Assembly: GCF_000316665.1 (NCBI RefSeq)
Contig: NC_019678.1
Location: 2,728,001 to 2,792,000 of the forward strand
Length of the DNA: 64,000 bases
Reading direction: 5' to 3'
DNA from: Rivularia sp. PCC 7116
GTDB taxonomy: Bacteria > Cyanobacteriota > Cyanobacteriia > Cyanobacteriales > Nostocaceae
Shown: positions 23,789 through 39,676 of the stretch, in pieces
How positions within the stretch are numbered: position 1 is the stretch's first letter
How the letters are laid out: each line of letters opens with the position of its first letter
Notes under the pieces: generated by a model
Databases searched by the model: none
Seen by the model: the letters and a program-made list of their open reading frames with translations, nothing else
What the model was told of the DNA's origin: nothing
Translations under genes and position numbers: made by a program

Positions 23789-23930
23789 TGTCGGCGTACA
23801 ATAAAATTGTACAATTTCAAATCCTGGAATACCTATTATATCGTTGCAAATTTCGGATACTTGAAAAAATAAAGTTGTACAATTTGTGTCAGCTATTCTC
23901 AAAAATTGAACAATCAAGTTGTACATTTTT
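23789..23930. mobile_element. Left end of a Tn7-like transposon
   Basis: Starts TGTCGGCGTACAATAAA, which agrees with the Tn7 terminus as I remember it (TGTGGGCGGACAATAAA) at 15 of 17 positions. Three TTGTACA sites follow at 23807, 23875 and 23919, spaced about 68 and 44 bp apart; Tn7-left also has three separated transposase-binding sites. The opposite end, near glmS at 39587-39639, carries the same CGTACAATA and AAAATTGTACAA sequences in inverted orientation. Confidence 0.75.
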
Positions 23931-24219
23931 CCTAATGCTTGCCATATAAGGGTTTGAAGCGCTGCAAAAAGAACAAATCTTTTGATTTTTACATTGGCTT
24001 TCTTCTAGCTTTTATTTTAGTCATATCACTAAGCAAATATAGGTTTATGAATAGGTTTTTCATAAGTAAATATATCATTAAAAGTAATAATCATTACTAT
24101 TATAGTTTTACTTCAAAGGGCGATCGCTCTCAATATGTAATCTCCTAAAACGTTTTTACTGAAATCAAAAATGCAATTTCTTCAACATAAGAAATGAAAT
24201 AACTAAGATTAAATTAGAT
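23931..24219. other. Spacer between the transposon left end and drmC
   Basis: No convincing gene. A TTG-initiated frame at 23939-24148 is rich in Phe, Tyr, Lys and Ser and looks like chance. No terminator for the drm operon is evident. Confidence 0.4.
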
Positions 24220-25014
24220 TTAAATCAATATTGGACGTAAGATTTTTTGAGATACTAAAGCATCAAACTGTAGACGCAATGCTTGGGCTATGCTTGTATC
24301 GTTCAGTAATACACCTGCTTCAATATTCCGTTCGTGAGCCGCTTGTGTAAAATTGGCGGATGTTACGAGTACTTGTGCTTCATCTACAGCAATACATTTG
24401 GCGTGTAAACAAGATTTTTGTTTGGTATCTAGTGCTAAGGAGCGGGTGTCATAAAATAGTTTCGGCAGTCTTTTCCCAGACCAAATATCATGACGAAAGG
24501 TGTCTGCAAATTCTCTCAATAAAATTGACTCTGCAACTTTGCTTTGATGAGGACGTTTGATATTAAGAAACATCTGAACATCAAGTTCTGGGTTTACTTC
24601 CATTCGTTGTGCAAGTACTTCAAATAATCTCTGGGCTTTTTCGCCTTTATCAATAGCAAAACTGGAAATCAAAACGCTTTTTTTGGCTTTACTGAAAAGT
24701 TCGCGGACGACTACACCAGTATCGCGACTTCGGGAACCAGTAATTTCTGGACCAGTCCATACTAAATTAATGCGATCGCGTATTCGTTGAGAATTATCTT
24801 TTTCTTGTGCAAGCAAGCGTAAGGTATAAGCAATGTGTTTACAGTCTACACCTTGGGAATTTAAGCGATTTAGTTCGTCTACTATTTCTTGGCTTAAATT
24901 TACGGGTACGTAATTGAGAATACTGGATATGAGAAAGGGTGGGGAAAGTCTTCTGGTAAGAAGCGCTGTTGCCAGTTTATCCAAGTTAGGACGACTGAGT
25001 TTAAGAAAGGTCAT
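24220..25014 (-). CDS. drmC: DISARM protein DrmC (phospholipase D-like)
   Basis: 264 residues. A single PLD-type HKD motif is visible at about residue 205: HAKCIAVDEAQ followed by VLVTSANFTQAAHERNIE. An SSFAIDKGEKAQRLFEVL stretch precedes it, as in phosphodiesterase nucleases. DrmC is a conserved accessory of DISARM, reported as not strictly essential for defence. It starts only 5 bp after the drmB stop on the same strand, so the two are cotranscribed. It is the last gene of the locus before the transposon left end. Confidence 0.85.
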   Translation of the reverse strand: MTFLKLSRPNLDKLATALLTRRLSPPFLISSILNYVPVNLSQEIVDELNRLNSQGVDCKHIAYTLRLLAQEKDNSQRIRDRINLVWTGPEITGSRSRDTGVVVRELFSKAKKSVLISSFAIDKGEKAQRLFEVLAQRMEVNPELDVQMFLNIKRPHQSKVAESILLREFADTFRHDIWSGKRLPKLFYDTRSLALDTKQKSCLHAKCIAVDEAQVLVTSANFTQAAHERNIEAGVLLNDTSIAQALRLQFDALVSQKILRPILI

Positions 25015-25019
25015 TATAG

Positions 25020-26882
25020 TTAACTGCGGAAAAACTCTGCTCCCAAACTTTCAACTGTAGACACAACCAAAGCCCTATCCAAAAATTCATTACGACGTTC
25101 GCACGATGTTTCTGCAATCAACAAGCATCCGTGACAAGCGGAACCGTGTAAAAATCTTTCTTCTTCTTCGTTATCTGCTTTGTGTTGGGCGCAAACTGGG
25201 TCATTTGAACATAATTTACCTTGTTCTAAGGCTGATTCTAAATGGTATTCAATCCGTTTCCCAACTTCTACTAATCCGCCTAATGTACCTTCCGAACCTG
25301 CGGAACCTGTATATAAAAGTATTCCATATCCCGCTTCACCAGCATAAACACGTTCGCGGATGGAACTTGCTGCATAACCGCATTCGAGGGATACTGCTGT
25401 AATTAGTAAGTGTGACAAGGAATGCAGCATTACATATGGCAGTCCGGGAAATTTGACTTTATCTACTTCTTGGTCGATACCTTTACGAGCGCACCAGATA
25501 TCAAATCCCCTTGATAATTCTCGTCCCCGTTTTTTCACTGCTTGTCGCTGTAACCATTCTTCAATGGCTTCGTTACGAAAAGCAATAAATACACCTTCGC
25601 CTCTATTCTCAATTGCAGGAACCCAAGTAGGTTCAACATCCAATGCAGCACGTCTGACGCTGATATCAAGTTCGCCATCAATATCGGGCATTTCGGCTTC
25701 AAAGCGGGTAAAACCTACTTGAGCGATAACTTCCCGGAGACGATGAACTAAAACGATACGCTCAATCAGCGAAGTAAATTTAGGTTTTAAATTACTTAAA
25801 TCTCTGGCTGTAGCGTAAAAATCGCTTTCGGGTACGTCTTCTCCAACTTCTACGGGACTTGAAAGTAATGTCTCAATTTCTACTTGTTTAATGCTTTTAT
25901 GTTCTTTGACTTGTCCGCTTTGTCGGCGTTGAATTTCCTGCCAAACTTCCTCATCGCTAAATCTTTCTATTGCTACGAATACCTTTTGTTTTTTACGTTC
26001 TTTTCTTACATCCCTAGCATCTTCTGCATACTGTAGAAAATCTTCGTAGACTATACTAACCGCGTCTCGCAAAGCTGTGTCTGAGTCTGGAAGGGAAATA
26101 ACGCTGAGAAGTTGAGAAAAATAAGCGTTGCTAGCAGAACGAACTAATAAACGATTATATTCGGGTTTACCTTTCTTTTCGTTTATACATTGGGGTTCTT
26201 TGGCAAAATCACCAATCCAGGGGCGATGTCCTTCACAAGGACCCAAAACTTTTGCGTTGGGAACTGTTGCATCTGCAAGGGGACGACGAGCTTTGCAGGC
26301 TTCGCAACGGACGTAAATTTCTGCAAAGTCATTACCGGAACCTCCTTCATCTAACCATAATTGTCCTCGACATCTTTTTTGGGAGTCTTGATGTACGAAG
26401 GTATACCAATCAATATCGCTAAGATGTCCTTTGACGCAGGCTTGAACGAAGCGAACGGGTACAACAGGTACTTTCTTTTTTTCAGAATTGAGATATTTCC
26501 CAGAAACTAAACTTCCCCAAGGTAATAGGGGACGAGTACGATAATTTTTTTGAGTTTTGCTATCAAACCAAGTTTCCTCTACCTGAGCTAAAAACCAAGT
26601 AGGAAACATAAAAGCATTTATTCCTGTACGGTTTGCTTTTGGGTCTTGTTCGTTAACTGGTGGCGCATACAGTTTGATACTCGAAACTTGTAAGATTTCA
26701 GCAACTCTGGCTTGTAAACGTTCTTCTGATATGTTTCTTTTATCACCACGCCAATGGCTTAAACCTGCGATTAATACGGAATGTTCCGGTAAATCTACCA
26801 TCGAACCGGAACCGAATGTCGAAAGAATTTGACTTTGGCGAATTTGTCCTGCTGGGGGAATTTTTTTGTTAGATTTACTCAT
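25020..26882 (-). CDS. drmB: DISARM protein DrmB (DUF1998)
   Basis: 620 residues, typical DrmB length. The start, PPAGQIRQSQILSTFGSGSMVDL, is a family hallmark. A Cys-containing block lies near residue 190 (CEACKARRPL). The C-terminal DUF1998 region (about 465-610) has YVMLHSLSHLLITAVSLECG, GILLYTGSAGSEGTLGGLV, CSNDPVC and GSACHGCLLIAETSCERRN, the last being a probable zinc site. DrmB forms a complex with DrmA that loads on and restricts incoming DNA. A 411-bp repeat-filled gap separates it from drmA, and drmC follows immediately. Confidence 0.9.
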   Translation of the reverse strand: MSKSNKKIPPAGQIRQSQILSTFGSGSMVDLPEHSVLIAGLSHWRGDKRNISEERLQARVAEILQVSSIKLYAPPVNEQDPKANRTGINAFMFPTWFLAQVEETWFDSKTQKNYRTRPLLPWGSLVSGKYLNSEKKKVPVVPVRFVQACVKGHLSDIDWYTFVHQDSQKRCRGQLWLDEGGSGNDFAEIYVRCEACKARRPLADATVPNAKVLGPCEGHRPWIGDFAKEPQCINEKKGKPEYNRLLVRSASNAYFSQLLSVISLPDSDTALRDAVSIVYEDFLQYAEDARDVRKERKKQKVFVAIERFSDEEVWQEIQRRQSGQVKEHKSIKQVEIETLLSSPVEVGEDVPESDFYATARDLSNLKPKFTSLIERIVLVHRLREVIAQVGFTRFEAEMPDIDGELDISVRRAALDVEPTWVPAIENRGEGVFIAFRNEAIEEWLQRQAVKKRGRELSRGFDIWCARKGIDQEVDKVKFPGLPYVMLHSLSHLLITAVSLECGYAASSIRERVYAGEAGYGILLYTGSAGSEGTLGGLVEVGKRIEYHLESALEQGKLCSNDPVCAQHKADNEEEERFLHGSACHGCLLIAETSCERRNEFLDRALVVSTVESLGAEFFRS

Positions 26883-26904
26883 ATCTATTCATAAAATCTT
26901 TTAT

Positions 26905-27131
26905 TCACAGAGTCACAGAGATTGAAAATCTCTGTCTCATAGCTAAATTCCTCTGGAAGAGGAATAAACTATGATTGATTATTTGTTCCACAGTCGTCTT
27001 AAGACACAGAGATTGAAAATCTCTGTCTCATAGCTAAATTCATCTGGAAGATGAATAAACCATGATTGATTATTTGTTCCACAGTCGTCTTAAGACGACT
27101 TTTGCTTTTAGACAGGGATTTTCAATCCCTG
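26905..27131. repeat. REP-like hairpin cluster between drmB and drmA
   Basis: Two near-identical left half-units: AGAGATTGAAAATCTCT hairpin, then GTCTCATAGCTAAA, then a TTCnTCTGGAAGAnGAA hairpin, each followed by the shared TGATTATTTGTTCCACAGTCG. One right half-unit follows: AGTCGTCTTAAGACGACT, then TTTTAGACA, then GGGATTTTCAATCCC. The same grammar is found at 31383-31530, 32060-32310 and 35467-35600. Confidence 0.8.
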
Positions 27132-27133
27132 AT

Positions 27134-27287
27134 TAAATATCGTTGGTTAATTATCGTTGGTTAATTATCATGGGCTAAATATCATTGGCTAAATATCCCT
27201 GGCTAAATATCCCTGACTAATTATCATTGGCTAAATATCGTTGGTTAATTATCATGGGCTAAATATTCCTGGCTGAATATCTGGTTC
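27134..27287. repeat. 14-bp tandem repeat, about 11 copies
   Basis: Units of the form TAAWTATCnYTGGY follow each other without spacers, for example TAAATATCGTTGGT, TAATTATCATGGGC and TAAATATCCCTGGC. The array abuts the drmA stop codon (27294) and the REP-like cluster, and occupies the intercistronic space of drmA and drmB. Shorter, degenerate runs of the same unit occur at 31530-31585 and 32300-32345. Confidence 0.85.
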
Positions 27288-27293
27288 GATTAC

Positions 27294-30200
27294 TTATTTT
27301 TTTACCTCCTCTACCTCATCTCCATTGGGGTTAATTACCCACAGATTGACTGTTGGTTCGACATCGCGCAAACTGCGTTGGGCTTTAAATTTGCGTGCTT
27401 CTAAGGGCTGGTTTAGTAATTCGGGGTCTAGGGGTTCAAATATTAATGGAGGTGCTTCCCCGACTTCGCGCTGGTATTGTAGGTTTATTTTGTCATTGGC
27501 TATTCGTTCCCACAGGTCGAGTAAATCTTTAACGGTGTTTCTAACTTTTTGACGCAATGCTTCACTATCGCTAGCGCTGAGTTCCTTGTCGTGCATTTCT
27601 GCTCGTTGGGCTATTTTATCCACAACAAATTCCAATTCTTGGCGATTTTGAAGAATTTCAATTGCATTTGTTGGTGCTGTCATTTTTGTATGTCCCAGAC
27701 GAGCCAAAGCAACGGTAATAGCTGCAATTCCTCGGTCAATAGCGCGGGGAGAAAAGGGAGTCACGCTAGTTGCTTCTACAGCGCGGTAAAATGATGAATG
27801 CCAAGCACAGAAGCGTTCGTAGTGGGAACGGTCCCTGGGTCGATGAATGTTAAGTAATGTCACTACTAATCCCGGTCGTTTTTCATCTCTTCCTACACGG
27901 CTGGTAGCTTGAATATATTCTGCTGCTGTTTTGGGTTGACCGAGAACTACCATTAAACCCAAGCGGGTAATATCCAAACCTACGGATATCATGTTTGTTG
28001 CTAAGACAACATCTACTTTATCGTTTTTATCGAAGGTGGATTCTAGTCTTTGTTTGGTATTAGCTACTTCGCTGGTGCTGACGCGGGATGTCAGTTCTTC
28101 GGGTTCGTCATCAATTTTACGGTCGGCAAATAATCCGGAGGCTTCACCAATTCGCTTGCGTTGACTGTAGCGATTCAAGCGTGTTTTAACTTCATCTTCG
28201 ACGATGCGACGGCTTCCTCCCAGTTCCCGCAGAGAATTAAAGTAACCTAATAATGTCATGTAGGGGTCGGCTGGATTATCAGGGTTTTTCTTTCCTCCGG
28301 CAGCTAACCAGTGTTTTTGAGCCGCCCCTAACAATGCTAAATAAGTACGTAATAATACTACTTTGGCGCTGCGTCCTTGGGCTGCAATTCCGACATAGGT
28401 ACGAGCGTTTTTCTCACTTGCGGGGACGGTTTTAGCAAAAAACGAGTCGCGTCTATCGGGTCCCGGTGGAGGGAAAATATCGACTTCGCTACGACCAAAT
28501 AAGGCTTGAATTTGTTTACTAGCGCGACGAACTGTAGCTGTAGAAGCCACTATTTTAGGTCGGGTTGGTTTACCGTTGATTTCGCGACTGCATAAAGCAT
28601 CAATTGCAGTTTCATACAGTCCTACCATTGTTCCTAAAGGACCCGATATTAAATGTAATTCGTCTTGAATAATTAAATCTGGTGGAGGTAAATGACTTCC
28701 TAAAGCTTTACCACGTCCGGGTTGAGTCGGTCCATAAAAACCATTTTGGTCGTAGCGGTCTACTTTTCCGAATAATGCACCTGTTTCTCCTACCCAAGGT
28801 AGACTAGCGAATTTATCAACTGTGGCAATTATAAAGCAGGGTAAACGACGATAAATTGGTTCGTCTACGGTGACAATTGGTAAATTCTTACCTTTTCTAC
28901 CGGAGAAATCACAGCGACGGTTGCTGCAATATACGTGTAAGTTGCTTGGTTGGTCGGGGTTGGGATGTAATTGGAATGAGTTACGGTCAAATTTGGTTCC
29001 GCACCAAGGACAATTTTCTAAAGGTATGGGTGAGGGGTTGCGATTATTTTTCTGAAAATCAAGGGTACGTTTTCTAGCGCTATAGTCGTCGTTATCTCCT
29101 TTTTTACCCATGCGGTTGGGAGTCGCTGCTTGTCCTACCCAAAGTCCGATTTCAAAAGACCATGTTCCCAATAGTTCGGGATTTTTTTCCCGTTCTAATT
29201 CTAAAGCGCAAATCATCGCTGCTGCACGTCCGAGTTGGTCGAGGGTGAGAAGTCGCAATGTATAGCGCATGAGAACGCTTAAACCAGCAGATTTTATTTT
29301 TGTTTTTGGGTCTGGGTTATGCAGTCTTCGCAGTACTAAGGTAAATGCAGCAAGTCCTAAATAAGCTTCGGTTTTACCACCACCTGTAGGGAAGAATAGC
29401 AAATCAACTAATTCCCTTTCGTTATGTTCGGGGTTAGCTACTCCCAATAAGTTCATCAAGATAAAAGCTAACTGAAAAGGTCGCCATTTTGGAGGTGCGA
29501 TACTTTCCGGTGTAATATTTTGACCGTGGGTTTTACGCTGACGGATATAAGTGGCGATCGCCCGATTTCCAATTTGGAATGCTGTAAATATATCGGGGTC
29601 TGTTAATGCTTGTATTCCCGCATTAATCCGATTTTTGGCAATTTCCGCACGATTTAACAAGTCAGATGCAATATTGAAGCGTTTGGGTTCTTGTGGAGAT
29701 GTTAAGCGCTGTTGTTCAATCCAATCACCATAAGCATTCACCATTGGACTCAGCATATTTTGTAAAGCTTCCGGTGTTTGGGCTTTAGCTAGTTCCTCCA
29801 TCCCCAATTCCACATCTTTGAATTCATCTTCCGTCGCAATTACCTTTTCTACATCCGCAGTCGGTATCCAAGCGGTACGAACATAATTGCAATTTCCATC
29901 GACATTAGTAACAGCTACAGCCGAAACATTATGACCAACAGCATATTCATAATTATCCCGGTATTGCAAATCCGCAACACTTTCATCCCAATCATCATTA
30001 TCCCTTCCGCGTAAATTGGGACGGGGAACAAAAGGTTCTATGGTGCGAATAGCTAAACTAGTTTGAAAAGTATAGGTTGTATCGCGTTCTTTATCGTTTG
30101 TAGGAACGCGCTTATTTACCAGAAATACCGAAACCGAGAGACTACCAGCCGGAACAAGTTCTTTAGAAGCAACCGGACGAACCGAAACGACTAACTCTAA

Positions 30201-30821
30201 ACCGTTGCTATCCGGTATGGGAATATTTAAATTTGGCGATACCCCACCTTTATTAAGAGGTAATTCTAGTTGCTTGGGATTATGTTCCCCTATCGGAATA
30301 GTAATTTCTTGTTGACGAGGAATCCGCTTCCAACATCCGGGAATTGTTTGTGTTTGTTTTTCGTCTGTAGCTTCTAACTGTTCCTCTTGCGGAATAGTTT
30401 TATTTTCTGTATCAGTATCAATATTTTCTTTATAAGGATAATAGTCACCCCAAGCGACGGTGACATTAAGATGACTAGTATTTTGATTAACAAGTAAACT
30501 TAAACCGATTGATGAAGGGAAAAAAGCTTTTTTTGCAAAGGTTTTTTCGGGGACATTTTCATCTTCACCCGCAGCACCACCGCTAACTTGGTCTAACTCA
30601 TCATCCCCATTATCATCAGTACGCTGTTCGATAGAAGCACCATAAGGAACGAGAAAACCCGTCAAATAACCTTTTGATGGCGCTTGGTCGAGAATTTCCT
30701 CTGCGTAATTAATATCGTCGGGAGTGGGTCCTATGAGGTCGAGTTGTAAAGCTTCGATGAGATGCGCTCGGACGGTAGAGGATTGGTTAGATTGCACTTG
30801 GTTAGGAATTGCTGCTGTCAT
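27294..30821 (-). CDS. drmA: DISARM helicase DrmA
   Basis: 1175 residues. A superfamily 2 helicase of the DISARM core: Walker A in FFPTGGGKTEAYLGLAAF (about 475), DEAH-type box in LIIQDELHLISGPLGTM (about 718), motif III in IVASTATVRRAS, and motifs V and VI in VLATNMISVGLDITRLGL and YIQATSRVGRDEK (about 973). A Cys4 zinc-binding insert is seen (CPWCGTKF...CSNRRCDF). DrmA with DrmB binds and translocates on foreign DNA and discriminates self partly through methylation and DNA ends. It is the first drm gene after the HigA/RAYT interruption, and its own promoter probably lies in 30822-31072. Confidence 0.93.
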   Translation of the reverse strand: MTAAIPNQVQSNQSSTVRAHLIEALQLDLIGPTPDDINYAEEILDQAPSKGYLTGFLVPYGASIEQRTDDNGDDELDQVSGGAAGEDENVPEKTFAKKAFFPSSIGLSLLVNQNTSHLNVTVAWGDYYPYKENIDTDTENKTIPQEEQLEATDEKQTQTIPGCWKRIPRQQEITIPIGEHNPKQLELPLNKGGVSPNLNIPIPDSNGLELVVSVRPVASKELVPAGSLSVSVFLVNKRVPTNDKERDTTYTFQTSLAIRTIEPFVPRPNLRGRDNDDWDESVADLQYRDNYEYAVGHNVSAVAVTNVDGNCNYVRTAWIPTADVEKVIATEDEFKDVELGMEELAKAQTPEALQNMLSPMVNAYGDWIEQQRLTSPQEPKRFNIASDLLNRAEIAKNRINAGIQALTDPDIFTAFQIGNRAIATYIRQRKTHGQNITPESIAPPKWRPFQLAFILMNLLGVANPEHNERELVDLLFFPTGGGKTEAYLGLAAFTLVLRRLHNPDPKTKIKSAGLSVLMRYTLRLLTLDQLGRAAAMICALELEREKNPELLGTWSFEIGLWVGQAATPNRMGKKGDNDDYSARKRTLDFQKNNRNPSPIPLENCPWCGTKFDRNSFQLHPNPDQPSNLHVYCSNRRCDFSGRKGKNLPIVTVDEPIYRRLPCFIIATVDKFASLPWVGETGALFGKVDRYDQNGFYGPTQPGRGKALGSHLPPPDLIIQDELHLISGPLGTMVGLYETAIDALCSREINGKPTRPKIVASTATVRRASKQIQALFGRSEVDIFPPPGPDRRDSFFAKTVPASEKNARTYVGIAAQGRSAKVVLLRTYLALLGAAQKHWLAAGGKKNPDNPADPYMTLLGYFNSLRELGGSRRIVEDEVKTRLNRYSQRKRIGEASGLFADRKIDDEPEELTSRVSTSEVANTKQRLESTFDKNDKVDVVLATNMISVGLDITRLGLMVVLGQPKTAAEYIQATSRVGRDEKRPGLVVTLLNIHRPRDRSHYERFCAWHSSFYRAVEATSVTPFSPRAIDRGIAAITVALARLGHTKMTAPTNAIEILQNRQELEFVVDKIAQRAEMHDKELSASDSEALRQKVRNTVKDLLDLWERIANDKINLQYQREVGEAPPLIFEPLDPELLNQPLEARKFKAQRSLRDVEPTVNLWVINPNGDEVEEVKK

Positions 30822-30944
30822 AGGATAATATTTTTAACTTTTTTATTACAGATAAAAATAAATATTGTAAGTAAATATTCAGATATCAAAGGTATAACCA
30901 ATCAATGTTAGCTCATAGATATCGAAAACTTGTGGTAATTTGTC

Positions 30945-30957
30945 TTGTATAGTACAA
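30945..30957. promoter_or_regulatory. Candidate operator between drmA and the HigA-like gene
   Basis: TTGTA-TAG-TACAA is a perfect 5-bp inverted repeat in the 251-bp divergent spacer, about 125 bp from each start codon. Small XRE/HigA proteins bind such short palindromes, so it may mediate control of drmA and of the regulator. It also resembles the TTGTACAA sites of the transposon ends, so an alternative is a stray transposase-binding site. Confidence 0.35.
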
Positions 30958-31072
30958 TTGTTTTATGAATGATTGATTTTTAGCGAAACTTTTTATAAAA
31001 GAAACATCATTAAAACTAGAGAGCATAATAGGTATTTAGAAGAAATTTAATTATAAAATTGGCTATAGGAAT

Positions 31073-31333
31073 ATGACCCAGAATTTAACATCAGCAAGAG
31101 CTATTTCACCAGGAAAAGTTTTACATCGAGAATTACAAGCTCGTGGTTGGACACAAAAATATTTAGCTGAAATTATGGGTTGTGGGGTTAAAAACATTAA
31201 CGAAATTATTCAGGAAGCGAAGGAAGTTACACCAGAAATCGCAATCGAATTATCTCAAGTGTTGGGTACTTCTGCTGAGTTTTGGACAAACTTGGAAACA
31301 AAATATCAGCTTCATTTAAGCGGGAAAGAATGA
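31073..31333 (+). CDS. Orphan HigA-type XRE-family antitoxin/regulator
   Basis: 86 residues. The sequence ISPGKVLHRELQARGWTQKYLAEIMGCGVKNINEIIQEAKEVTPEIAIELSQVLGTSAEFW has the HigA-style helix-turn-helix (GWTQKYLAEIMG ... INEIIQ) and the usual C-terminal NLETKYQL. HigA normally pairs with an upstream HigB toxin, but there is no toxin frame on either side. It is divergent from drmA inside the DISARM locus. It may be a left-over of a toxin-antitoxin pair or a dedicated regulator of the locus. The ATG at 31073 has AGGAAT just upstream. Confidence 0.8.
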   Translation: MTQNLTSARAISPGKVLHRELQARGWTQKYLAEIMGCGVKNINEIIQEAKEVTPEIAIELSQVLGTSAEFWTNLETKYQLHLSGKE

Positions 31334-31382
31334 TAAGATATTTCAAATATTCCAGATATTTCAAATATTCCGAATTTAACCA

Positions 31383-31585
31383 TATCCAGAGGTTGAAAAC
31401 CTCTGTCTAATAGCTAAAATCATCTAAAGATGATTGAAAAAATGCACATCAAAATAAAAAATCAACCCACTTCCCCAGTCCTCTTATAGAGGACTTTAGC
31501 TATCAGACAGGGATTTTCAATCCCTGGCTGAATGACTGGCTTGCTGGCTAAATTTGGCTAATTTTGGCTAAATCTAGCTAAATCA
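31383..31585. repeat. REP-like paired hairpins upstream of the RAYT gene
   Basis: Left half-unit AGAGGTTGAAAACCTCT, GTCTAATAGCTAAA, ATCATCTAAAGATGAT, then 40 bp of spacer, then right half-unit AGTCCTCTTATAGAGGACT, TTAGCTATCAGACA, GGGATTTTCAATCCC. The central GTCTnATAGCTAAA and TTTAGCTATCAGAC are inverted copies of each other. The cluster sits at the 3' side of the transposase gene and ends in degenerate TGGCTAAAT tandem units. Confidence 0.8.
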
Positions 31586-31587
31586 AT

Positions 31588-31992
31588 TTAAACATTTTCC
31601 AAATACGAATTAGTTGTTCCTTGTGAATGATGTATTTTTTGATTTTTGACATAAATAACTGCTTTTTCAAGTTGTTTGCTTCCTAACGAAAAAACACCAT
31701 ATCCTTCTTGCCAAGAAAATTTATCTGAGGTCGTAGGAGTATTATGATTAATATGATAAGAACTACTTCCTTTTACTTTTTTGACATATTCAGAAATCGC
31801 TATTGTTGGTGGAATAGATACAATTACATGAATGTGGTCTTCCATGCCACCTATAGCGTGAATTATGCAATTTAGAAAATCAGATTTACCGATTATATAA
31901 TTATAAAGTTCTGGTTCTTTGTCAGCACTAATTAAAGGTTGGCGTTGTTTTGTTGTCCAAATAATATGGTAATAGATTCGCCACAAAGACAT
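31588..31992 (-). CDS. IS200/IS605-family Y1 transposase, REP-associated (RAYT) type
   Basis: 134 residues. MSLWRIYYHIIWTTKQRQPLI is the standard opening. The metal-binding HUH motif is DHIHVIVSIPP, and the catalytic tyrosine is in VIYVKNQKIHH. It is flanked on both sides by REP-like hairpin pairs, the arrangement expected for a single-copy domesticated or REP-mobilising tyrosine transposase rather than a full IS605 with tnpB. It lies between the drmMI remnant and drmA, so it interrupts the defence operon. Confidence 0.85.
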   Translation of the reverse strand: MSLWRIYYHIIWTTKQRQPLISADKEPELYNYIIGKSDFLNCIIHAIGGMEDHIHVIVSIPPTIAISEYVKKVKGSSSYHINHNTPTTSDKFSWQEGYGVFSLGSKQLEKAVIYVKNQKIHHSQGTTNSYLENV

Positions 31993-32054
31993 AAATTTTT
32001 ATCATTTGCTGTTGAACTATATTTAATAGGTTGCCCATTTTCGTTAAATAAATT

Positions 32055-32345
32055 AATATCCAGAGATTGAAAACCTCTGTCTCATAGCTAAAATCATCTA
32101 AAGATGGTTGGGAAAATTGCACATCAAAACAAAAAATAAACCCATTTATTCACCAGAGGTTGAAAACCTCTGTCTCATAGCTAAAATCATCTAAAGATGA
32201 TTAAAAAAATTGCACATCAAAACAAAAAATAAAATAATATAATTTTCCCAGTCCTCTTACAGAGGACTTTAGCTATCAGACGGGGATTTTCAATCCCTGG
32301 CTTATGGAATCCCTGGCTTATTTAATCCCTGGCTTATTTAATCCC
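32055..32345. repeat. REP-like hairpin cluster between drmMI remnant and RAYT gene
   Basis: Two left half-units (32060-32107 and 32155-32203: AGAGGTTGAAAACCTCT, GTCTCATAGCTAAA, ATCATCTAAAGATG) and one right half-unit (32249-32299: AGTCCTCTTACAGAGGACT, TTAGCTATCAGAC, GGGATTTTCAATCCC). They are followed by tandem TCCCTGGCTTATTTAA units. The last units run into the 3' end of the methyltransferase remnant and encode its final residues. Confidence 0.8.
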
Positions 32346-33728
32346 CGGTATATCTGGCAAATTTTCAACAACCTTTTTCGATTTTGTTTTATTAGATTTC
32401 TTTTTCTTACCTTTACCTTTACCCTTACCAGCAACCTTCCCACCTAAAATTTCCTCTTGATGACGCTGTTGATTCAAATCCAACAACCGCGCTAATACCT
32501 CATCATGAGTTTCTTCACCCCAACGATAGCGCCAGGGTTTTTTCTTTTGTCGTCCCCCCTCTCTTTGATAAGGAGAGGGGTTGGGGGTGAGGTTGTCGTC
32601 TTCTTCTTCTTCGTAATCTAGGAGAAAATCGCAGTCGGTGGGAATATCTAACCAACCGTAAGCATCGAGGACAGCTTTATCCATTGCGGTGTGGAGTTCC
32701 CGGAGTTTGATGATTTCCGGGTCGTATTCGTCGGGGTCGTGGAAGCGGTTGTAGGTGTCAGTGAGTCCTTGGTTGTTGCGAACCATTAAAGCTGCGCGGT
32801 ATTCGTAGTATTCTTTGCCTGCTGCTTCTAGGGTGGGGTTGGTTTCCCAGTTTTCGGGGAAGGGGAAGGTTTCAAAGCAGTTGGAGGGAGTATAGCGAAG
32901 GTCATCTTTCATAGATGAACTAAAAAATCTTGCCCAAATTTCATGAATGCGCGATTGCATAATGCAGAATGCAGAGTAGGTTGATAGTGGGAAAATGGCA
33001 AGAGTATTAGCAAATACCATTCTTGATGATTGAAACGAAAATGATATATAAGTACTAGCCCCGCAATTAGTAACTAACACACGTTCGAGAGGTGCGATCG
33101 CTTTAAATAAACCTGATGTATATCTACCCCAAAGCCACCAATTTTTTTTACGTCTTCGAGCATCAGCATTATCGCCTAATTTTAACCTCTCAGGCTTAAC
33201 ATTCTCTTCTACAATCTTGATTAAATCAGGATATTCCCTAGCCTCATCCTCACTCATTTCACCAAAATTAATTACGTACCTATGATGTTTATGAGTCGGA
33301 CTTGAATTAACCTCTTCCCCACCAATATAAGGAAAAATCCGCTCTTGATTTTTAGAATTTTGTTCAATTAGTCGCTGCATTTCTGCAATAGGTGTACCGT
33401 CAGGCTTAGAATCATCAAAGGTAAAACCCATACCCAACACAATACTACCCTGAAAACTTTTATCGGCATTTGCTAATAAAACAGCAGGATTGTTATTTCC
33501 ACCTGATTTAAATAAAAACGCGGAAATTAAATCTACTTTGCGTCCATCTAATGATTTTACCCCTTGATAATCACCTTTAAAAACATTAATAACACTAACA
33601 ATAACAGCCGCTAACCCAACCCATTTAACTCGTTTTTGAGCATTGTAAATAGTTCCGCCATTTTCACAAATATATCTCAATCCAGTGCTGCGAGTATCAC
33701 CTTGAGCAATGGTATTTGTAGCAATCAA
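32334..33728 (-). pseudogene. drmMI: drmMI remnant, C-terminal half (DISARM adenine methyltransferase)
   Basis: 464 codons matching the C-terminal half of PglX/DrmMI-type N6-adenine methyltransferases: FGLIATNTIAQGDTRSTGLR, the target-recognition and helical region (WWLWGRYTSGLFKAI, YTPSNCFETFPFPENWE), and a basic tail. The frame stays open upstream of its TTG to about 33773 (FFRRAFTLLRKN), which is the sequence normally just after the NPPY catalytic motif. So this is the continuation of the upstream piece with the SAM-binding core missing. An in-frame insertion near 32560-32605 adds LTPNPSPYQREG, a translated dispersed repeat. Without its N-terminal half it cannot methylate DNA. Confidence 0.85.
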
Positions 33729-33748
33729 ACCAAAGGAAGCATTCTTTC

Positions 33749-35380
33749 TTAAAAGTGTAAAAGCCCTGCGGAAAAAGTGCGTCGTCTTTCCTCTCCCGGT
33801 TGCAAAAACAATGAACCAGCAGGTAATACAGTCGGGGTTTGTGGGGATATTTTTCTTCCTAAAGCTGCAATTAAATCCTCTGTGGTTTTAGCTTGTTTTA
33901 ATTCTTTAAGTGATTTCCCTGAAATTTCACAGCCCGCAACTTTTTTTAAATACTTGGCTCGGTCATTGGCTTTATTTGCTAAAATCTCATCAACGCTGAC
34001 AACCACAGTTACAGAAGATTTAGCGCTTTTAGGTTTACTCCATACACCTATAGATTGTGAAGTAGCTAATTTTACCTCAAAGCCCATTATCGCCGAATAC
34101 ACTGAGCCGATTTGTTCAACGTCCAAAGAGCGGTAGGATAAACGCTCTCCATCAAGAACGAGTAAGCTTTGCAAGGCTTTATGAATAATATCATCCGAAA
34201 GGCGGGGTGGTTCAATCAATTCCCATTCTTTATAGGTAGTATTGCGAGAGCGACCTTCTAAAAATGCGTATTCATCGGGGTCAAAAAGTTGTCCGTGACG
34301 GGCTGGTAAGTATAAATCTGCATGACAACCGCCATCGTACACCAAGCGAAACAGACTGAGCAACCAAGCCCAAGCACCATAACGCTGATCCATTGTGTCG
34401 GGATAGTTTCCTGCATCCTCGCGCAATCTTTCATAGAGTCCAGTTACGGAATAATTGCGCGTATAAATTGAACCTTGGGGCATTAATCCTTCATCTTCAG
34501 CATACAGCAGAAATACTAACCGCAGTAATACCGTAATTAATCCCCCGTAGATATGTTGGGGGTCATTTTTGGCAATGTCATCAAGTAAAATTCCGTTAAC
34601 TGCTGCATTGGCAGTTTGAAAACCACGCAGTAATTCCCACAAAGCATCAAGTACTTGTTCTGACAACTTAGTAGAAACTTCATTTTGATATTTGCGGCTA
34701 TTTTGCAGCACTGCGACCAAACTACGGTCTGCTGGTGCATTGAACACTCGTTGTTCTTCGAGCAACATATGCATTGCACCTAAAATCAACCGTCCCGAAA
34801 CTTCACACATAGCCTGTACGGGAAACGTCAGATGTCCGGAAGATTCCCCTTGTGGAGCATATACCAAACGTAATTCTGTACCGTTGCACAATATACCTAC
34901 AGGAATTTCCTTTTCCCGCAATAATCGCTCAAACTTAGCTTGGGGACTAGCGTGCCATCCTGTCGATTTTGTATCTTCGCTGACTCTATCAAAGTCAGTA
35001 CCCGGAGAAATCACCTGTACCAGCATCAGCCAACCATCATCGTTATCCGGGTCAGTTACAGCATAGGTTGGCTGTAAAATTTCACCGTATTCCGGTAGCG
35101 ATACCGTCAAATCCTCTGGACAATCAACTAAATCTTCAGCCTGCCAATCTAAAACTTCAACGGTAAACTCGGCAAAGTCAGAAATTATAGAAATATTTTC
35201 AGTACTGTAACTGGAAAAATCCCGGTTGACTACTTCAATTAAGCGTTGCTGTAAATCAACCACATTGCGATTCACCGACATTTGAGCATTATTTAACGCT
35301 GTTGGTGAGACTACCAATCCAACAGGTTGAAGAAAACCCAACCATTCCTTATGCGCTTGAATTTCTCTATCCCTTGCCAT
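33749..35380 (-). pseudogene. drmMI: drmMI remnant, N-terminal half
   Basis: 543 codons. The start MARDREIQAHKEWLGFLQPV and the helical N-terminal domain are typical of class 1 DISARM DrmMI. It runs normally to PAGSLFLQPGEERRRT, where intact family members continue into GSHYTPR and the SAM-binding and NPPY motifs. Here the frame switches to FSAGLLHF and stops at 33749. At about 33771-33777 it is joined to DNA that encodes the post-catalytic part in another frame. I infer an internal deletion of roughly 300-400 codons plus a frameshift. drmD lies upstream after a 269-bp repeat-containing gap. Confidence 0.85.
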
Positions 35381-35466
35381 ATTTACCTTTGAAAACTTTT
35401 TATTAATTGGTTTATTAATTAGTCTTTGAATTAGTCAGAGTTTTGGGAATAAATATCCCAGTCACA

Positions 35467-35600
35467 GAGTCAGAGGTTGAAAACCTCTGCCTGATAGCTA
35501 AAATCATCTGAAGATGATTGTGTCCGCAGGTTGTGGGATAAAATACCCCAGTCCTCTTCCAGAGGACTTTAGCTATTAGACAGGGATTTTGAATCCCTGG
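35467..35600. repeat. REP-like hairpin pair between drmMI remnant and drmD
   Basis: Left half-unit AGAGGTTGAAAACCTCT, GCCTGATAGCTAAA, ATCATCTGAAGATGAT, then right half-unit AGTCCTCTTCCAGAGGACT, TTAGCTATTAGACA, GGGATTTTGAATCCC. This is the cleanest single pair of the family and shows the full nested order. Confidence 0.8.
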
Positions 35601-35649
35601 CTGTGGTGTGGCTTTTTAAGCCTTGGTTTTTTACGGGGTCTAATGGTTG

Positions 35650-38600
35650 TCAACCAGAAACAGACCACAAATAAACCAAACCCACAGGCTCAACTCGCAC
35701 CGCTTTCACCTGGTAAGAAGCTTCAATTCGGGCAGGTTCGGAATTAATTTCTTCTGCAAGTGCTTTCAATCGCTTTTCCCAGTGACGACGGTCTGCTTCT
35801 AATTGCCGTTTTTCCTCAGCCTCAGTAGGGAGCAAGGATAATTGCTTTGGTTGTTTTTGTTCCTCGTCGATTTCCTGCTTGCGTTGATTAATCCTCTGCT
35901 GCTGCTGTTCGAGAATTTTTTTCATTTCAACAGCTTCTTTCTTACCCCGTTCGCTCAATTTCTTCTCAGCCCTTGTTGCTAAAACCTCAGCACGACGTTC
36001 TAAATGGGGAATCAAATCGGCAATATCTTGGGTTGCATTCTGTTTGAGCAGTGTTTTCACCGTTTCCGGTGCTTTTTGTAATCGAGGAGAAGCTAAGGAA
36101 TCCTCTAAGGTCGCAAGTACATTATCTCTCTCTCCTTCATTTAGCGGTTGTAGTTTCTTGCGTTTCTTTGCTGCTGGTTCTGATAAATTTGCTGCAATTG
36201 CAATTACCTCATCATGTAACCGTGACGCACCCTGTCCGTAAATAGATAAACGTCCCAAAGCAATAACTTTCGGAATTGGGTCATCGGTTAGACAAACACA
36301 AGCACGAGTCAATTCATCGTGTAAAAACCCTTGCGCTAGAAATCTACTTAATAAACGCTGTACAACCCGATGCTCTAAATGCAAGTGAACTACGTCCCCA
36401 TCCAAACAACCGGGGTCGCGAAATACTACCGGACGAATCGGTGATTCTCGTCTCCATTCCCAAGGCTTTTGTCCTTTTTGACGCTGAGGTCTTAAGGTAT
36501 CAAAAGTATTCGCCCATGTGGAATCGGTACTTTGGTCAAGGGGTGGCAACGTCCAACGTGCAGTAGCTGAATCTTGACAAGCTTCATTACTATCGACTGG
36601 AGTAAGAGGAGTAGCATCGAGAATTTCTAAAGAAGCAGAAATAGCATTGCGGAAGTGTTCATCACTCAATCCCAACCAATCCCGCGAATCTTTCAGCATC
36701 TTTTGCAAGCGAGATAATTCTTTAGTTAATTCTTCCTTCCGCAGTCGATTTTCTTCTAACTCCTGATTAATTACCTCCAAATTAGGTAATTCGGCTTCTT
36801 CAATAGAATTGGTAATATTACTTGCACTATTGTGGCTAATACCACCATTCAATAGCCGCGATAAATTCTTTTGTACCACAGGAGACAGGCTTCCCAATTC
36901 TTTTTGAATTGTTGCTGTCTTCCTCACCAGCGCTTTTAATACTTTATCTTCCGTCCGTTGTGCAAACACAAAATAGTAGCAATGTACAACTTGCGCTCGC
37001 TGTAACTTTCTGTCAATACGTCCGTTACGCTGCTCCATTCTTGATGGATTCCAAGGTACATCAAAATGATAGAGGTCAGCACAATTATTTTGCAGGTTTA
37101 CTCCTTCCCGTGCTGCATCCGTAGCAATTAAAATTCGTAGAGGATGACGAGATGGGTCAGCATTGAAAGCTTTTTTGATAGCTTCCCGACGCTCCTCTCC
37201 AATTCCACCATGAAACACATCAATGCGTTCCCTTTCTTTCTCGGAACCTGCAATAGCTTCTTGGAGTTTTTGCTGTAAGTAGCGTTTTGTATCTGTATAT
37301 TCAGTAAATATAATGACTCGTTTATCTAACCAAGCTGCATTTGGTTTACCTAAATCCGGACAAAGATTTTCTTTAATCCAGTTCATCAACCGTTCAACTC
37401 TTGCATCTGCTAGGTATCTAGCTTGGTTAGCAATATCGGTCATCTCCTCCAAGATGTCTAACTCCCGATTGCTCAAACCACAGCTTGCAGCAGCAACTGT
37501 AGCAACCTTTACCTGATTATCTTCCTCCGCTTGTACCTCTTCTTCGGTTAATTCTGCCCGCTCATCGTCAGCACCAGGAGGTTCTAACAGTAACGGTAAA
37601 TTTTCCACAGTATTGGTAGAAAGTTTCGCAGCTTGCTTTTCAATCGCTGCACGATGAACCTTCAAAGTACGCGCAAAAGCTTCTATAGAAGACAACAAAC
37701 GCTTTTGTAAGGAAATTATTACCAGCATCGCTGTATTTTGCGTTGACTTCGATGCATCCCTTAACCGCTCTTCCCGCAGATGACGATACTCTTGTAATAA
37801 CCGCGACAACTTCAACTCTGGTGCATCTTCCTCAAGATTATCGATAACAATAGGAATCACCCGTCGTTCGGGAAACTCCTCGCCAATCTCCCGTAAATCT
37901 TGCTTTAACCGACGCACCATTACCGTATCTAAAAGTTTGCGATCGCGCACGGGTACACCACGACAAAACCGTTGCGGGTCAAGGATTTCCAACAAAGCAG
38001 CAAAGCTATTAGAATGTCCGTTATGAGGAGTCGCAGACAGGAATAACTTATGCTCAAATCTTGGTGCAATATCGCGGACAGTGCGAGTTAATTGAGAATC
38101 CACAGCATACTTTGCACCACTCGCTGGGGCTGCATTATGGGCTTCATCAAGAATCAACATCGATGCGCTACTCATATCTCCCAACCAATCCCGTAAAGGA
38201 GCAGCATAGGTTTCATCCCGCAACAAAGCATGAGAAATAATAAAACGGGTGTGAGTCGTCCAAGGATTAATCCCATAACCCCGTTCTTGACGACGAATAG
38301 CCACAAACTCGCGGTCAAAAATCACAAAAGTTAAGCCAAACCGGCTTTCCATTTCCTCCTGCCATTGTCGTACAACAGAAGGTGGACAAGAAATCACAAC
38401 GCGACGAACTTTTTGCCGCATCAGCATCTCGCGCAGAATCAGCCCTGCTTCAATAGTTTTTCCCAAACCAACATCATCAGCAATAAACAAACCAACTCTA
38501 GGCATTAATAAAGCCTTGCGGAGTGGTTCAAGTTGGTAAGCTTTGACTTCAATACCCGCTCGATAAGGAGCCTGAAAAAGTTTCGGGTCAGTTGAGGTGA

Positions 38601-38874
38601 CGCAATTCCAGCGTAGAGTATGGAGATAAGCCGAAAATAAACGAGGATTATCAAAACCGCGATTTACTATAGACTCCCAAGAAGTTTTACCTATAACTTT
38701 GGCATCAACTTCTCTTTCCCAAAGAATTTCTAACTGTTCTCCCAATGCATCATCTTCTAAACAAGAAAGACGAACTAAAGTGTCTTCATTCAAAGATGGT
38801 TTAGTTACTACATCTTCTACAAGATACTGCCTAGAGCGAACCCGAACAATTTTACCTGCATCAACCAACATCAC
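35650..38874 (-). CDS. drmD: DISARM protein DrmD (SNF2-like helicase), class 1 marker
   Basis: 1074 residues. SNF2/RapA-like superfamily 2 helicase: Walker A in LFIADDVGLGKTIEAGLIL (about 137), DEAH in LILDEAHNAAP (about 241), FLSATPHNGHSNSF, and C-terminal motifs RILIATDAAREGVNLQ and NPSRMEQRNGRIDR (about 617). The last 300 residues are charged coiled coil. DrmD with an adenine methyltransferase defines class 1 DISARM. Two adjacent ATG codons open the frame and either may be used. It is the first gene of the locus after the transposon right end. Confidence 0.92.
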   Translation of the reverse strand: MMLVDAGKIVRVRSRQYLVEDVVTKPSLNEDTLVRLSCLEDDALGEQLEILWEREVDAKVIGKTSWESIVNRGFDNPRLFSAYLHTLRWNCVTSTDPKLFQAPYRAGIEVKAYQLEPLRKALLMPRVGLFIADDVGLGKTIEAGLILREMLMRQKVRRVVISCPPSVVRQWQEEMESRFGLTFVIFDREFVAIRRQERGYGINPWTTHTRFIISHALLRDETYAAPLRDWLGDMSSASMLILDEAHNAAPASGAKYAVDSQLTRTVRDIAPRFEHKLFLSATPHNGHSNSFAALLEILDPQRFCRGVPVRDRKLLDTVMVRRLKQDLREIGEEFPERRVIPIVIDNLEEDAPELKLSRLLQEYRHLREERLRDASKSTQNTAMLVIISLQKRLLSSIEAFARTLKVHRAAIEKQAAKLSTNTVENLPLLLEPPGADDERAELTEEEVQAEEDNQVKVATVAAASCGLSNRELDILEEMTDIANQARYLADARVERLMNWIKENLCPDLGKPNAAWLDKRVIIFTEYTDTKRYLQQKLQEAIAGSEKERERIDVFHGGIGEERREAIKKAFNADPSRHPLRILIATDAAREGVNLQNNCADLYHFDVPWNPSRMEQRNGRIDRKLQRAQVVHCYYFVFAQRTEDKVLKALVRKTATIQKELGSLSPVVQKNLSRLLNGGISHNSASNITNSIEEAELPNLEVINQELEENRLRKEELTKELSRLQKMLKDSRDWLGLSDEHFRNAISASLEILDATPLTPVDSNEACQDSATARWTLPPLDQSTDSTWANTFDTLRPQRQKGQKPWEWRRESPIRPVVFRDPGCLDGDVVHLHLEHRVVQRLLSRFLAQGFLHDELTRACVCLTDDPIPKVIALGRLSIYGQGASRLHDEVIAIAANLSEPAAKKRKKLQPLNEGERDNVLATLEDSLASPRLQKAPETVKTLLKQNATQDIADLIPHLERRAEVLATRAEKKLSERGKKEAVEMKKILEQQQQRINQRKQEIDEEQKQPKQLSLLPTEAEEKRQLEADRRHWEKRLKALAEEINSEPARIEASYQVKAVRVEPVGLVYLWSVSG

Positions 38875-39302
38875 CCATTCCTCCCCTTAATGTACAGGCA
38901 CCTCCTTTGCAAGCGAAAACATCTGCTCAGCTATTGCTTGCAGTTGCGATTGGATGAATTATCAATCGCTCAAAAGGTAAAAATATTGTTTAAAAAACAA
39001 AAAAAACAACCTAATACAAGTCGCAAAATATACTTAGTTAATTAAAATAAATTTATCTCTCAGTATAAAGACATACAATTTAGATCGGCATAAAAATATT
39101 GATAATTAAACCTTTCATAAAATTTATACTGCTTCAGTTTAAAATAGCAATTAAAGACTTCATGTGCCTTCAGTGACATCACGATTAGTAATAACACTGT
39201 TTTGAGATTCTACAAAAATATAACTAGAAGTCAGGATAAAACAGCTACCTTTATCAAAATAAAATAATTGCTGTATTTGGAATAACTAAAAGTTCTTCTT
39301 AA

Positions 39303-39374
39303 CTCCTAACTTACACATTTTTAAACCCTTGCCCAATAAGGATTTGAAATTTAATTTAATGTGTAAGTTAGGAG
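39303..39374. repeat. 72-bp palindromic element with 17-bp arms
   Basis: CTCCTAACTTACACATT (39303-39319) is exactly repeated in inverted form as AATGTGTAAGTTAGGAG (39358-39374), with a core containing AACCCTTGCCCAATAAGGATT. It looks like a miniature insertion element or solo end pair. It abuts the truncated end of the tnsA fragment, so it may mark the deletion or insertion that removed the rest of the tns genes. Confidence 0.65.
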
Positions 39375-39383
39375 ATGATGCTC

Positions 39384-39540
39384 TCAGCTTGTTTTCCAAC
39401 CTGATGGTCTGGACACCCTACCCTTCGACGGGAAATCTTGAATCTTAATCCAGGGTTGGTATTTTTTCCCACTACCTTTACCCCAACCTTCCTTAACGCT
39501 CAAACTTGGCTTTAGTCCACTCTTGATTACTTCTAGCCAT
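39384..39540 (-). pseudogene. tnsA fragment (Tn7-like transposon endonuclease), frame-broken
   Basis: From the ATG at 39540 the frame reads MARSNQEWTKAKFER and then stops. One base-shift later the next frame reads VKEGWGKGSGKKYQPWIKIQDFPSKGRVSR...GWKTS. Together these give the N-terminal signature of cyanobacterial TnsA proteins (ARxxxxW...KEGRGxGxGxxYxPWLxxxDxPSxGRS). The rest of the endonuclease domain and all other tns genes are missing. It reads away from glmS and begins about 100 bp inside the right end, exactly the position of tnsA in Tn7. Confidence 0.65.
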
Positions 39541-39586
39541 ATACAAAATCTCCCACAGGTAAAATAAAATTTACCCACAGGAGAAT

Positions 39587-39639
39587 TTGTATAACTTTGT
39601 TATGTGTTGTACAATTTTATTGTGTATTGTACGAATTCA
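39587..39639. mobile_element. Right (glmS-proximal) end of the Tn7-like element
   Basis: Three sites, TTGTATAA, TTGTACAA and TTGTACGA, start at 39587, 39607 and 39627: an exact 20-bp period, like the contiguous TnsB sites of the Tn7 right end. Read inward on the minus strand, the tip is TGAATTCGTACAATA and continues to AAAATTGTACAA. This matches the left end (TGTCGGCGTACAATA) in the CGTACAATA part but differs in the outer eight bases. The tip is 37 bp from the glmS stop codon. Confidence 0.7.
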
Positions 39640-39676
39640 TTATTATTTGATAAAAAAATAAATTACGTAATTACAC

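Follow-up and report, generated by a model that had tools for sequence, protein, structure and literature searches.

How did a large defence locus come to lie directly downstream of glmS in the cyanobacterium Rivularia sp. PCC 7116, and did a transposon bring it there? We analyzed a 64-kb stretch (the window) of the 8.73-Mb, three-contig genome of this organism (G000, C1:2728001-2792000), in which a class 1 DISARM (defence island system associated with restriction-modification) locus occupies positions 24220 to 38874 on the minus strand, codirectional with glmS. This locus fills the interval from the 3' side of glmS to a Uma2-family gene. A preliminary description, made from the letters of the sequence, had taken the locus to be cargo of a defective Tn7-like transposon inserted next to glmS, and the observation as a whole holds, with corrections. 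We consider it probable, at about 0.75, that positions 23789 to 39652 are the remnant of a type I-B1 CRISPR (clustered regularly interspaced short palindromic repeats)-associated Tn7-like transposon with DISARM as its cargo.

Transposon ends and a tnsA remnant beside glmS

The features of the putative element and its attachment gene, in window coordinates, are as follows.

23789-24070, no strand, left end, with the terminus TGTCGGCGTACAATAAAATTGTACAA and spaced TTGTACA(A) sites, putative TnsB-binding sites
39293-39369, no strand, dispersed sequence bounded by inverted repeats, bordering the tnsA remnant
39366-39540, minus strand, tnsA remnant, codons 1-15 and 17-60, frameshifted
39550-39583, no strand, inverted repeat between the right-end sites and the tnsA start, conserved in related right ends
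39587-39652, no strand, right end, three TnsB-like sites ∼20 bp apart and a decayed terminus at ∼39652
39677-41575, minus strand, glmS, chromosomal flank and attachment gene

The right-end sites lie at 39587, 39606, and 39626, and alignment with relatives places the right terminus at ∼39652, 24 bases beyond the glmS stop codon, where the terminal TGT has decayed to TAT. The Tn7-like end that the preliminary description had seen here is therefore real, but its terminus lies 13 bp further out than the proposed 39639; the proposed attachment site at glmS stands. Together with the start of tnsA, this end is 82% identical over ∼270 bp to the corresponding regions of genomes G416, G433, and G417, with E values of up to 6e-75. 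When the terminus position was compared in 19 relatives by script and checked by eye, the terminal TGT was found at +25 after glmS in ten of them (G417, G503, G048, G433, G005, G006, G001, G002, G007, and G019), at +26 in G479, at +22 in G270, and at +5 in G530. For G385 (+25), G414 (+24), G376 (+26), and G004 (+23), where the script had taken an earlier TGT, the terminus was placed by eye; among the 19, no terminal TGT after glmS was present in G003 and G464.

The tnsA remnant, also named in the preliminary description, proved genuine, but it is short (∼60 codons) and frameshifted: it corresponds to residues 1 to 15 and 17 to 60 of the full-length TnsA of G376, in two frames. Its homology ends at ∼39366 to 39372, at the edge of the dispersed sequence, which has eight matches in its own genome including this copy (four over ∼70 to 88 bp and four short ones) and one copy in G005. 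A 35-residue frame of the window TnsA finds a match at an E value of 0.01 or better in 36 of the 388 genomes of the order, the window's genome included. The inverted repeat directly before tnsA (CTCCTRTGGGT...ACCTGTRGGAG) is kept in several right ends of complete elements and in scars, and it is possibly a terminator or regulator site that insulates tnsA from glmS.

Inward from the left terminus at 23789, TTGTACA recurs at 23874 and 23918. Under a strict criterion of three sites within 130 bp, by which the right-end cluster does not count, no place in the 64 kb other than the left end has a three-site cluster, and such a cluster was absent from all 100 first-order Markov sequences; a looser scan returned both ends and one further cluster, at 36871 to 36981, inside drmD. 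Homology to this end was found at other glmS loci, with E values from a small database of fetched stretches of 2e-23 for G464, 8e-21 for contig C58 of G376, 6e-18 for G479, 6e-15 for G417, and 9e-13 for G270, and with separate whole-genome values of 3e-16, 3e-14, 4e-10, 1e-5, and 3e-4, respectively. The window left end is ∼68 to 72% identical to those of G417, G479, G376 (C58), and G464 over ∼158 to 169 bp and 87% identical to the left end of G005, so that both the site cluster and the homology confirm the Tn7-like end that had been proposed at 23789. Within G000, each of the two ends has one match, and beyond a 23-bp match there are no further copies of the left-end region. The per-genome end scans scored three candidates per genome, so that their tallies are lower bounds, and the right-end scan missed known scars, with G001 and G004 scoring none yet matching in another comparison.

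We asked whether these ends and the hairpin could be ordinary terminator or intergenic sequence of glmS that resembles Tn7 by chance. The inverted repeat is followed by T-rich sequence and could terminate glmS transcription, and the window lacks a target-site duplication. This explanation is nonetheless extremely improbable given the ∼270-bp match of the right end and tnsA start to intact elements, the left-end homology of up to 3e-16 per genome, the presence of a second right-end copy 11 kb from glmS in G005, and the different hairpin that follows glmS in G003, a genome without the right end.

Complete elements at the same site in relatives

According to an excerpt of PMC11406308, type I-B1 CRISPR-associated transposons target glmS through TnsD and occur naturally only in cyanobacteria. 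We found the full order tnsA-tnsB-tnsC-tniQ-cas6-cas8b-cas7-cas5-tnsD at glmS in six genomes (G376, G417, G479, G530, G385, and G526). In G376, Pfam models identify TnsA, TnsB (Mu-transpos_C), TnsC (TniB), TniQ, Cas6, Cas5, and TnsD, with a Cas8b_N match just under the cutoff; the Cas7 assignment is by position and by similarity of the frame between genomes, the searched piece of the G376 frame having matched nothing. Partial sets are present in G186, whose TnsD match reaches only residue 485; in G433, where tnsB is in two pieces and the contig end truncates tnsD; in G416 and G414, where a search of the first 20 kb gave no match to tnsD; in G503, with incomplete tnsC and cas8b; and in G487, G506, G507, and G048. 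In G417, the element is flanked on both sides by GTAAT; this perfect 5-bp duplication of the target defines where elements of this family end. Relatives with the same ends plus tns genes, which the preliminary description had hoped for as support, thus exist, one of them (G376) with DISARM on the same contig.

The window resembles these elements in its insertion ∼25 bp past glmS, its left and right ends with spaced TnsB sites of the family type, its Tn7-like TnsA, and its cyanobacterial host. It differs in being a remnant: of the separate TnsA, TnsB, and TnsC proteins it retains TnsA residues 1 to 60, and the 5-bp duplication is absent, as are TniQ, TnsD, and the cas6/8b/7/5 genes with their CRISPR repeat. 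A search of the 64 kb with the rest of the G376 tns and cas genes (TnsB, TnsC, TniQ, TnsD, and cas) returned no match, nor did the core of the G376 CRISPR repeat match in the window. This comparison was made with the elements of the relatives, not with AvCAST itself. The genome of the window also carries a second Tn7-like element at C1 ∼6.19 Mb (L044:6916-12159), which encodes a 908-amino-acid fused TnsAB-type protein along with TnsC- and TniQ-like proteins recognized by eye; we considered it as a possible parent and rejected it as a different element. A TnsA search of the genome returned only this element and one match below the cutoff.

The closest parallel to the proposed arrangement is found in G376 (Calothrix sp. 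FI2-JRJ7, a metagenome-assembled genome), where a single contig (JAHHGX010000014.1) holds glmS, tnsA to tnsD, 0.9 kb of further sequence, drmD, an intact drmMI, drmA, drmB, and drmC, in that order. From this arrangement, DISARM is likely to lie inside the G376 element. A left end was not detectable between tnsD and drmD or from there up to the contig end. A tnsD-drmD junction shared by the window and G376 is not demonstrable, the region upstream of drmD being too diverged.

On the model of G376, the history of the window may be pictured as follows. Directed by TnsD-type targeting, a type I-B1 element would have inserted ∼25 bp past the end of glmS, with class 1 DISARM as cargo, the defence genes thus arriving by transposition and not by recombination into a scar. 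A later deletion would have removed everything beyond tnsA codon 60 as far as the region upstream of drmD, which in G376 comprises the rest of tnsA, tnsB, tnsC, tniQ, the cas genes, and tnsD, and the dispersed repeat would now sit at the deletion breakpoint. With the loss of the tns and cas genes, mobility would have gone too, with the ends and the cargo staying behind, and DISARM would have decayed as well, in the core of DrmMI. To judge from its sequence, the window copy can no longer transpose.

History of the site and of its DISARM locus

Seven congeners (G001 to G007) were compared at glmS. The sister species G005 has a glmS that is 98% identical at the protein level and the same flanks (the Uma2 gene, a 211-amino-acid gene, and a lipase gene); between glmS and Uma2, it carries a short right end, Hma genes, a left end, and a second right end, the last of these being the copy 11 kb from glmS. 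Its HmaA and HmaC are long, HmaB is represented by its C-terminal part only, and DUF559 and YhcG-type genes accompany them. Homologues of the window's Uma2-family gene lie downstream of glmS in G005, G001, and G002 (partial). In G003, which has no right end, glmS is followed by ∼0.5 kb, another Uma2-type gene (recognized by eye), and the start of the window's 211-amino-acid gene, an arrangement that is suggestive of an empty site and does not form a precise junction; the contigs of G003 and G007 end within ∼2 kb of glmS. A precise empty site joining ∼23788 to ∼39640, as the preliminary description had envisaged, was not found among the relatives. No drmB was found in G002 to G007, and G001 has a more distant one (69%) on another contig. 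The scar at glmS is thus either old or the product of repeated hits on the site.

Several observations weigh against a single element that brought DISARM to its present place. The window has no target-site duplication, its flanking five bases being different, and among ten loci inspected by eye a perfect duplication was seen only in G417 and a 4-of-5-bp one in G376 (GTAGC beside the left end versus GTAGT at the right end), with no matching flanks in G479, G385, G530, G503, G005, G048, and G270. The label type I-B1 is likely for the window and is drawn from its ends and 60 tnsA codons. As to G376, its left end was found on a second contig, C58, separate from the DISARM contig, and outside that left end lies a fragment resembling the drmA start and DISARM intergenic sequence (L169), perhaps from an older DISARM element. 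Its drmD and drmMI are less identical to those of the window than are several loci away from glmS. The tnsA remnant is nearest to G416 and G417 (86% of 35 residues) and G186 (83%), with G376 at 74%, and because this comparison does not favor G376 as the closest relative, we set our confidence at 0.75 rather than 0.78. The two right ends of G005 indicate that the window ends need not derive from one element, and the right-end sequence is present without DISARM beside it in six of the seven congeners (G001, G002, and G004 to G007), so the window right end may predate its DISARM. Finally, no element ends are detectable at glmS in G439 (Calothrix sp. NIES-4105), whose DISARM starts ∼1.5 kb past glmS in the same orientation, with drmC interrupted.

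Two other histories would account for part of this evidence. In the first, an old, decayed element left its ends in the ancestor of the genus, and DISARM entered later by homologous recombination or with another mobile element. The right-end sequence in the six congeners fits such a course, as does the divergence of that sequence, which is near that of the glmS DNA (87% versus 91% identity between the window and G005 and 84% versus 89% between the window and G006); the sister species, moreover, has other cargo between homologous ends, and most DISARM loci are not at glmS. We regard this later entry as unlikely all the same, since in G376, of another genus, DISARM follows tnsD next to a complete element at this very site, DISARM in the window fills the interval between the ends, and Hma, the system of the sister species, is likewise carried by glmS elements of G270 and G503.

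In the second history, the two ends come from different tandem elements, so that the window would be a fusion of two insertions with DISARM derived from one of them, a view compatible with transposon carriage in general. G005, with a right end, cargo, a left end, and a second right end before Uma2, offers a model for it; the window right end resembles the second one of G005 (87% over 123 bp), and matching target duplications are missing. Both window ends nevertheless share the site motif, no further end-like pair was seen between them (the one additional cluster being that inside drmD), and one element whose duplication has decayed would be the simpler account, which makes a fusion rather improbable in our estimate. 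As for the preliminary description, a single simple insertion is not established, and DISARM-less relatives that keep the ends, which it had listed as a case against itself, exist in part: G005 keeps both ends, and G001, G002, G004, G006, and G007 keep the right one. The ends are consequently not specific to DISARM, though not false.

Carriage of DISARM by Tn7-like elements at glmS is likely in view of G376. A drmB match is present in 68 of the 388 genomes of the order, and at 1e-100 or better drmB occurs at 51 places in 46 of the 217 genomes of the family. Only three of these 51 places share a contig with glmS at a distance of at most 30 kb, namely, the window (12.8 kb), G376 (27.1 kb), and G439 (16.6 kb), a lower bound given that many others are on separate contigs of draft genomes; a full-length tnsA is linked to DISARM in G376 alone of the three. 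The spread of DISARM between chromosomes by Tn7-like transposition, as the preliminary description had it, is therefore not general. A DrmB scan of genome contigs returned four loci. In the drmA and drmB trees, the window groups with G019, G376, and G439 (support of 1.000 and 0.979, respectively). In three members of this group, DISARM follows glmS and runs in its direction; G019 has DISARM on a contig other than that of glmS, and its glmS keeps the right-end sequence. In the drmD and drmMI trees, the window stands beside G019, G376, and G439 without a clean clade of the four, as G383, G438, or G441 intervene. The drmD and drmMI genes of the window are more identical to those of G303 and G379, which had suggested a mosaic locus; we dropped this idea, as all four per-gene trees set the window next to the G019/G376/G439 group. 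No ends were found at glmS in G438 and G441, where the sequence flanking the G376 left end on its outer side gave only short alignments.

Defence genes are also found in the cargo of other glmS elements. Of the six others that we searched, five carry a defence system: Hma in G270 and G503, bacteriophage exclusion (BREX) genes in G417 and G479, and type I restriction-modification in G530; G385 has a helicase and a PRTase-CE protein, with no named system in a Pfam search. Left ends with defence cargo and no or truncated tns genes are seen also in G005, in G270 (tnsA cut; HmaC and HmaA called by PADLOC), and in G464, where Hma was read from the starts of open reading frames (ORFs) only and no right end was seen. 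From ORF starts only, G012 appears to carry type I restriction-modification-like cargo. Either selection for the cargo or plain decay may lie behind this recurrence. The Hma islands of G005, G270, G464, and G503 share with the window the glmS site, a homologous left end (weaker in G503), and a large defence locus; they differ in carrying Hma in place of DISARM, and G503 keeps most of its tns genes. In G448 (L176:3130-3600), a right end, a tnsA stub, and a left end of this family lie within ∼0.4 kb next to glmS, apparently followed by another right end, and form a remnant of miniature size.

Defence cargo in Tn7-like elements is already known: an excerpt of the survey PMC8649781 lists restriction-modification, Gabija, cyclic-oligonucleotide-based antiphage signaling (CBASS), BREX, and others. 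Those elements resemble the window in having a defence system between Tn7-type ends, the difference being that the word DISARM is absent from the main text of that survey; it is likewise not mentioned in the main texts of PMC10293859 and PMC11406308. An excerpt of PMC12458937 places the DISARM-related ARMADA systems on satellite-phage-like elements. None of the titles and abstract openings that we searched reports a Tn7-like or CRISPR-associated transposon that carries DISARM, which does not establish that such a report is absent from print; within these searches, the DISARM link and the decay stages at one site look new.

DISARM gene content and the decay of DrmMI

DISARM genes were called by PADLOC and domains by Pfam, and the locus and its left flank read as follows.

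23108-23752, plus strand, Uma2-family gene (Pfam), first chromosomal gene beyond the left end
24220-25014, minus strand, drmC, phospholipase D (PLD)-family nuclease, ORF intact (PADLOC DrmC, 6.6e-131; Pfam PLDc_2)
25020-26882, minus strand, drmB, with MZB (MrfA Zn-binding) domain, intact (PADLOC DrmB; Pfam MZB)
27294-30821, minus strand, drmA, helicase, intact (PADLOC DrmA)
31070-31333, plus strand, small helix-turn-helix (HTH) frame, passenger of the DISARM locus (HigA-like by eye, no family search)
31588-31992, minus strand, IS200-type Y1 transposase, passenger between drmMI and drmA (Pfam Y1_Tnp)
32334-33728, minus strand, drmMI C-terminal piece, target recognition domain (PADLOC DrmMI; Pfam MmeI_TRD)
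33749-35380, minus strand, drmMI N-terminal piece, joining the C-terminal piece in a different frame (PADLOC DrmMI)
35650-38874, minus strand, drmD, SNF2-type helicase, intact (PADLOC DrmD)

The class 1 DISARM that had been described between the ends is thus present with all five genes, that is, the drmA, drmB, and drmC core, drmD, and drmMI in two pieces, in an order also seen in G376, G033, G530, and others. The window departs from the class 1 system in the two passengers between drmMI and drmA and in the lack of most of the methyltransferase core of DrmMI. As a side observation, 7 of 15 other DISARM loci examined, from several genera, have a match to the Y1 transposase gene immediately before drmA, mostly at ∼70 to 78% identity, although some of the stretches did not extend over that place; the gene may be an inherited insertion or a domesticated part. 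The HTH antitoxin-like frame, which lies on the strand opposite to the DISARM genes, was matched at its place in 6 of the 15. The gap at 26882 to 27294 and other gaps of the locus contain short repeats, and these turn up again between the genes of other cyanobacterial DISARM loci and at a few further places.

The window DrmMI matches only residues 1 to 532 and 850 to 1316 of the intact G376 protein (1,318 amino acids), in different frames, and residues 533 to 849 are absent. The intact protein has Eco57I, N6_Mtase, and MmeI_Mtase matches, and the lost part covers most of the Eco57I (622 to 875) and N6_Mtase (526 to 648) matches and the start of the best MmeI_Mtase stretch (808 to 915), so that the window DrmMI has no complete methyltransferase domain. 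Because most of this core is deleted, self-marking methylation by the window DISARM is predicted to be gone, with drmA, drmB, drmC, and drmD still open. An excerpt of PMC9142583 points to repression of DISARM by methylation and to DrmAB as a sensor of DNA structure; once its methylase is lost, such a locus could be derepressed, harmful, or silent. The window DISARM may still act against phages. The preliminary description had regarded the locus as fixed once the tns genes were lost, which is not shown, DrmMI having lost most of its catalytic core.

The wider pattern, that glmS-homing CRISPR-associated transposons repeatedly bring large defence systems (DISARM, Hma, BREX, and type I restriction-modification) to this one site and then lose their tns and CRISPR genes, with ends and cargo retained, is possible, and we put it forward tentatively, at somewhat less than even odds. 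If it is true, RNA-guided transposons would be a recurrent source of immobile defence islands in filamentous cyanobacteria, and the DISARM retained in this genome, without most of its methyltransferase core, could be derepressed and methylation free. The DrmMI deletion is a natural experiment on whether a cell tolerates DISARM when its own methylation is missing. The glmS site presents three stages, a complete element in G376, ends with a tnsA stub in the window, and no recognizable ends in G439, and the two sister species, whose homologous ends enclose different defence systems, make cargo exchange and immobilization at glmS directly testable.

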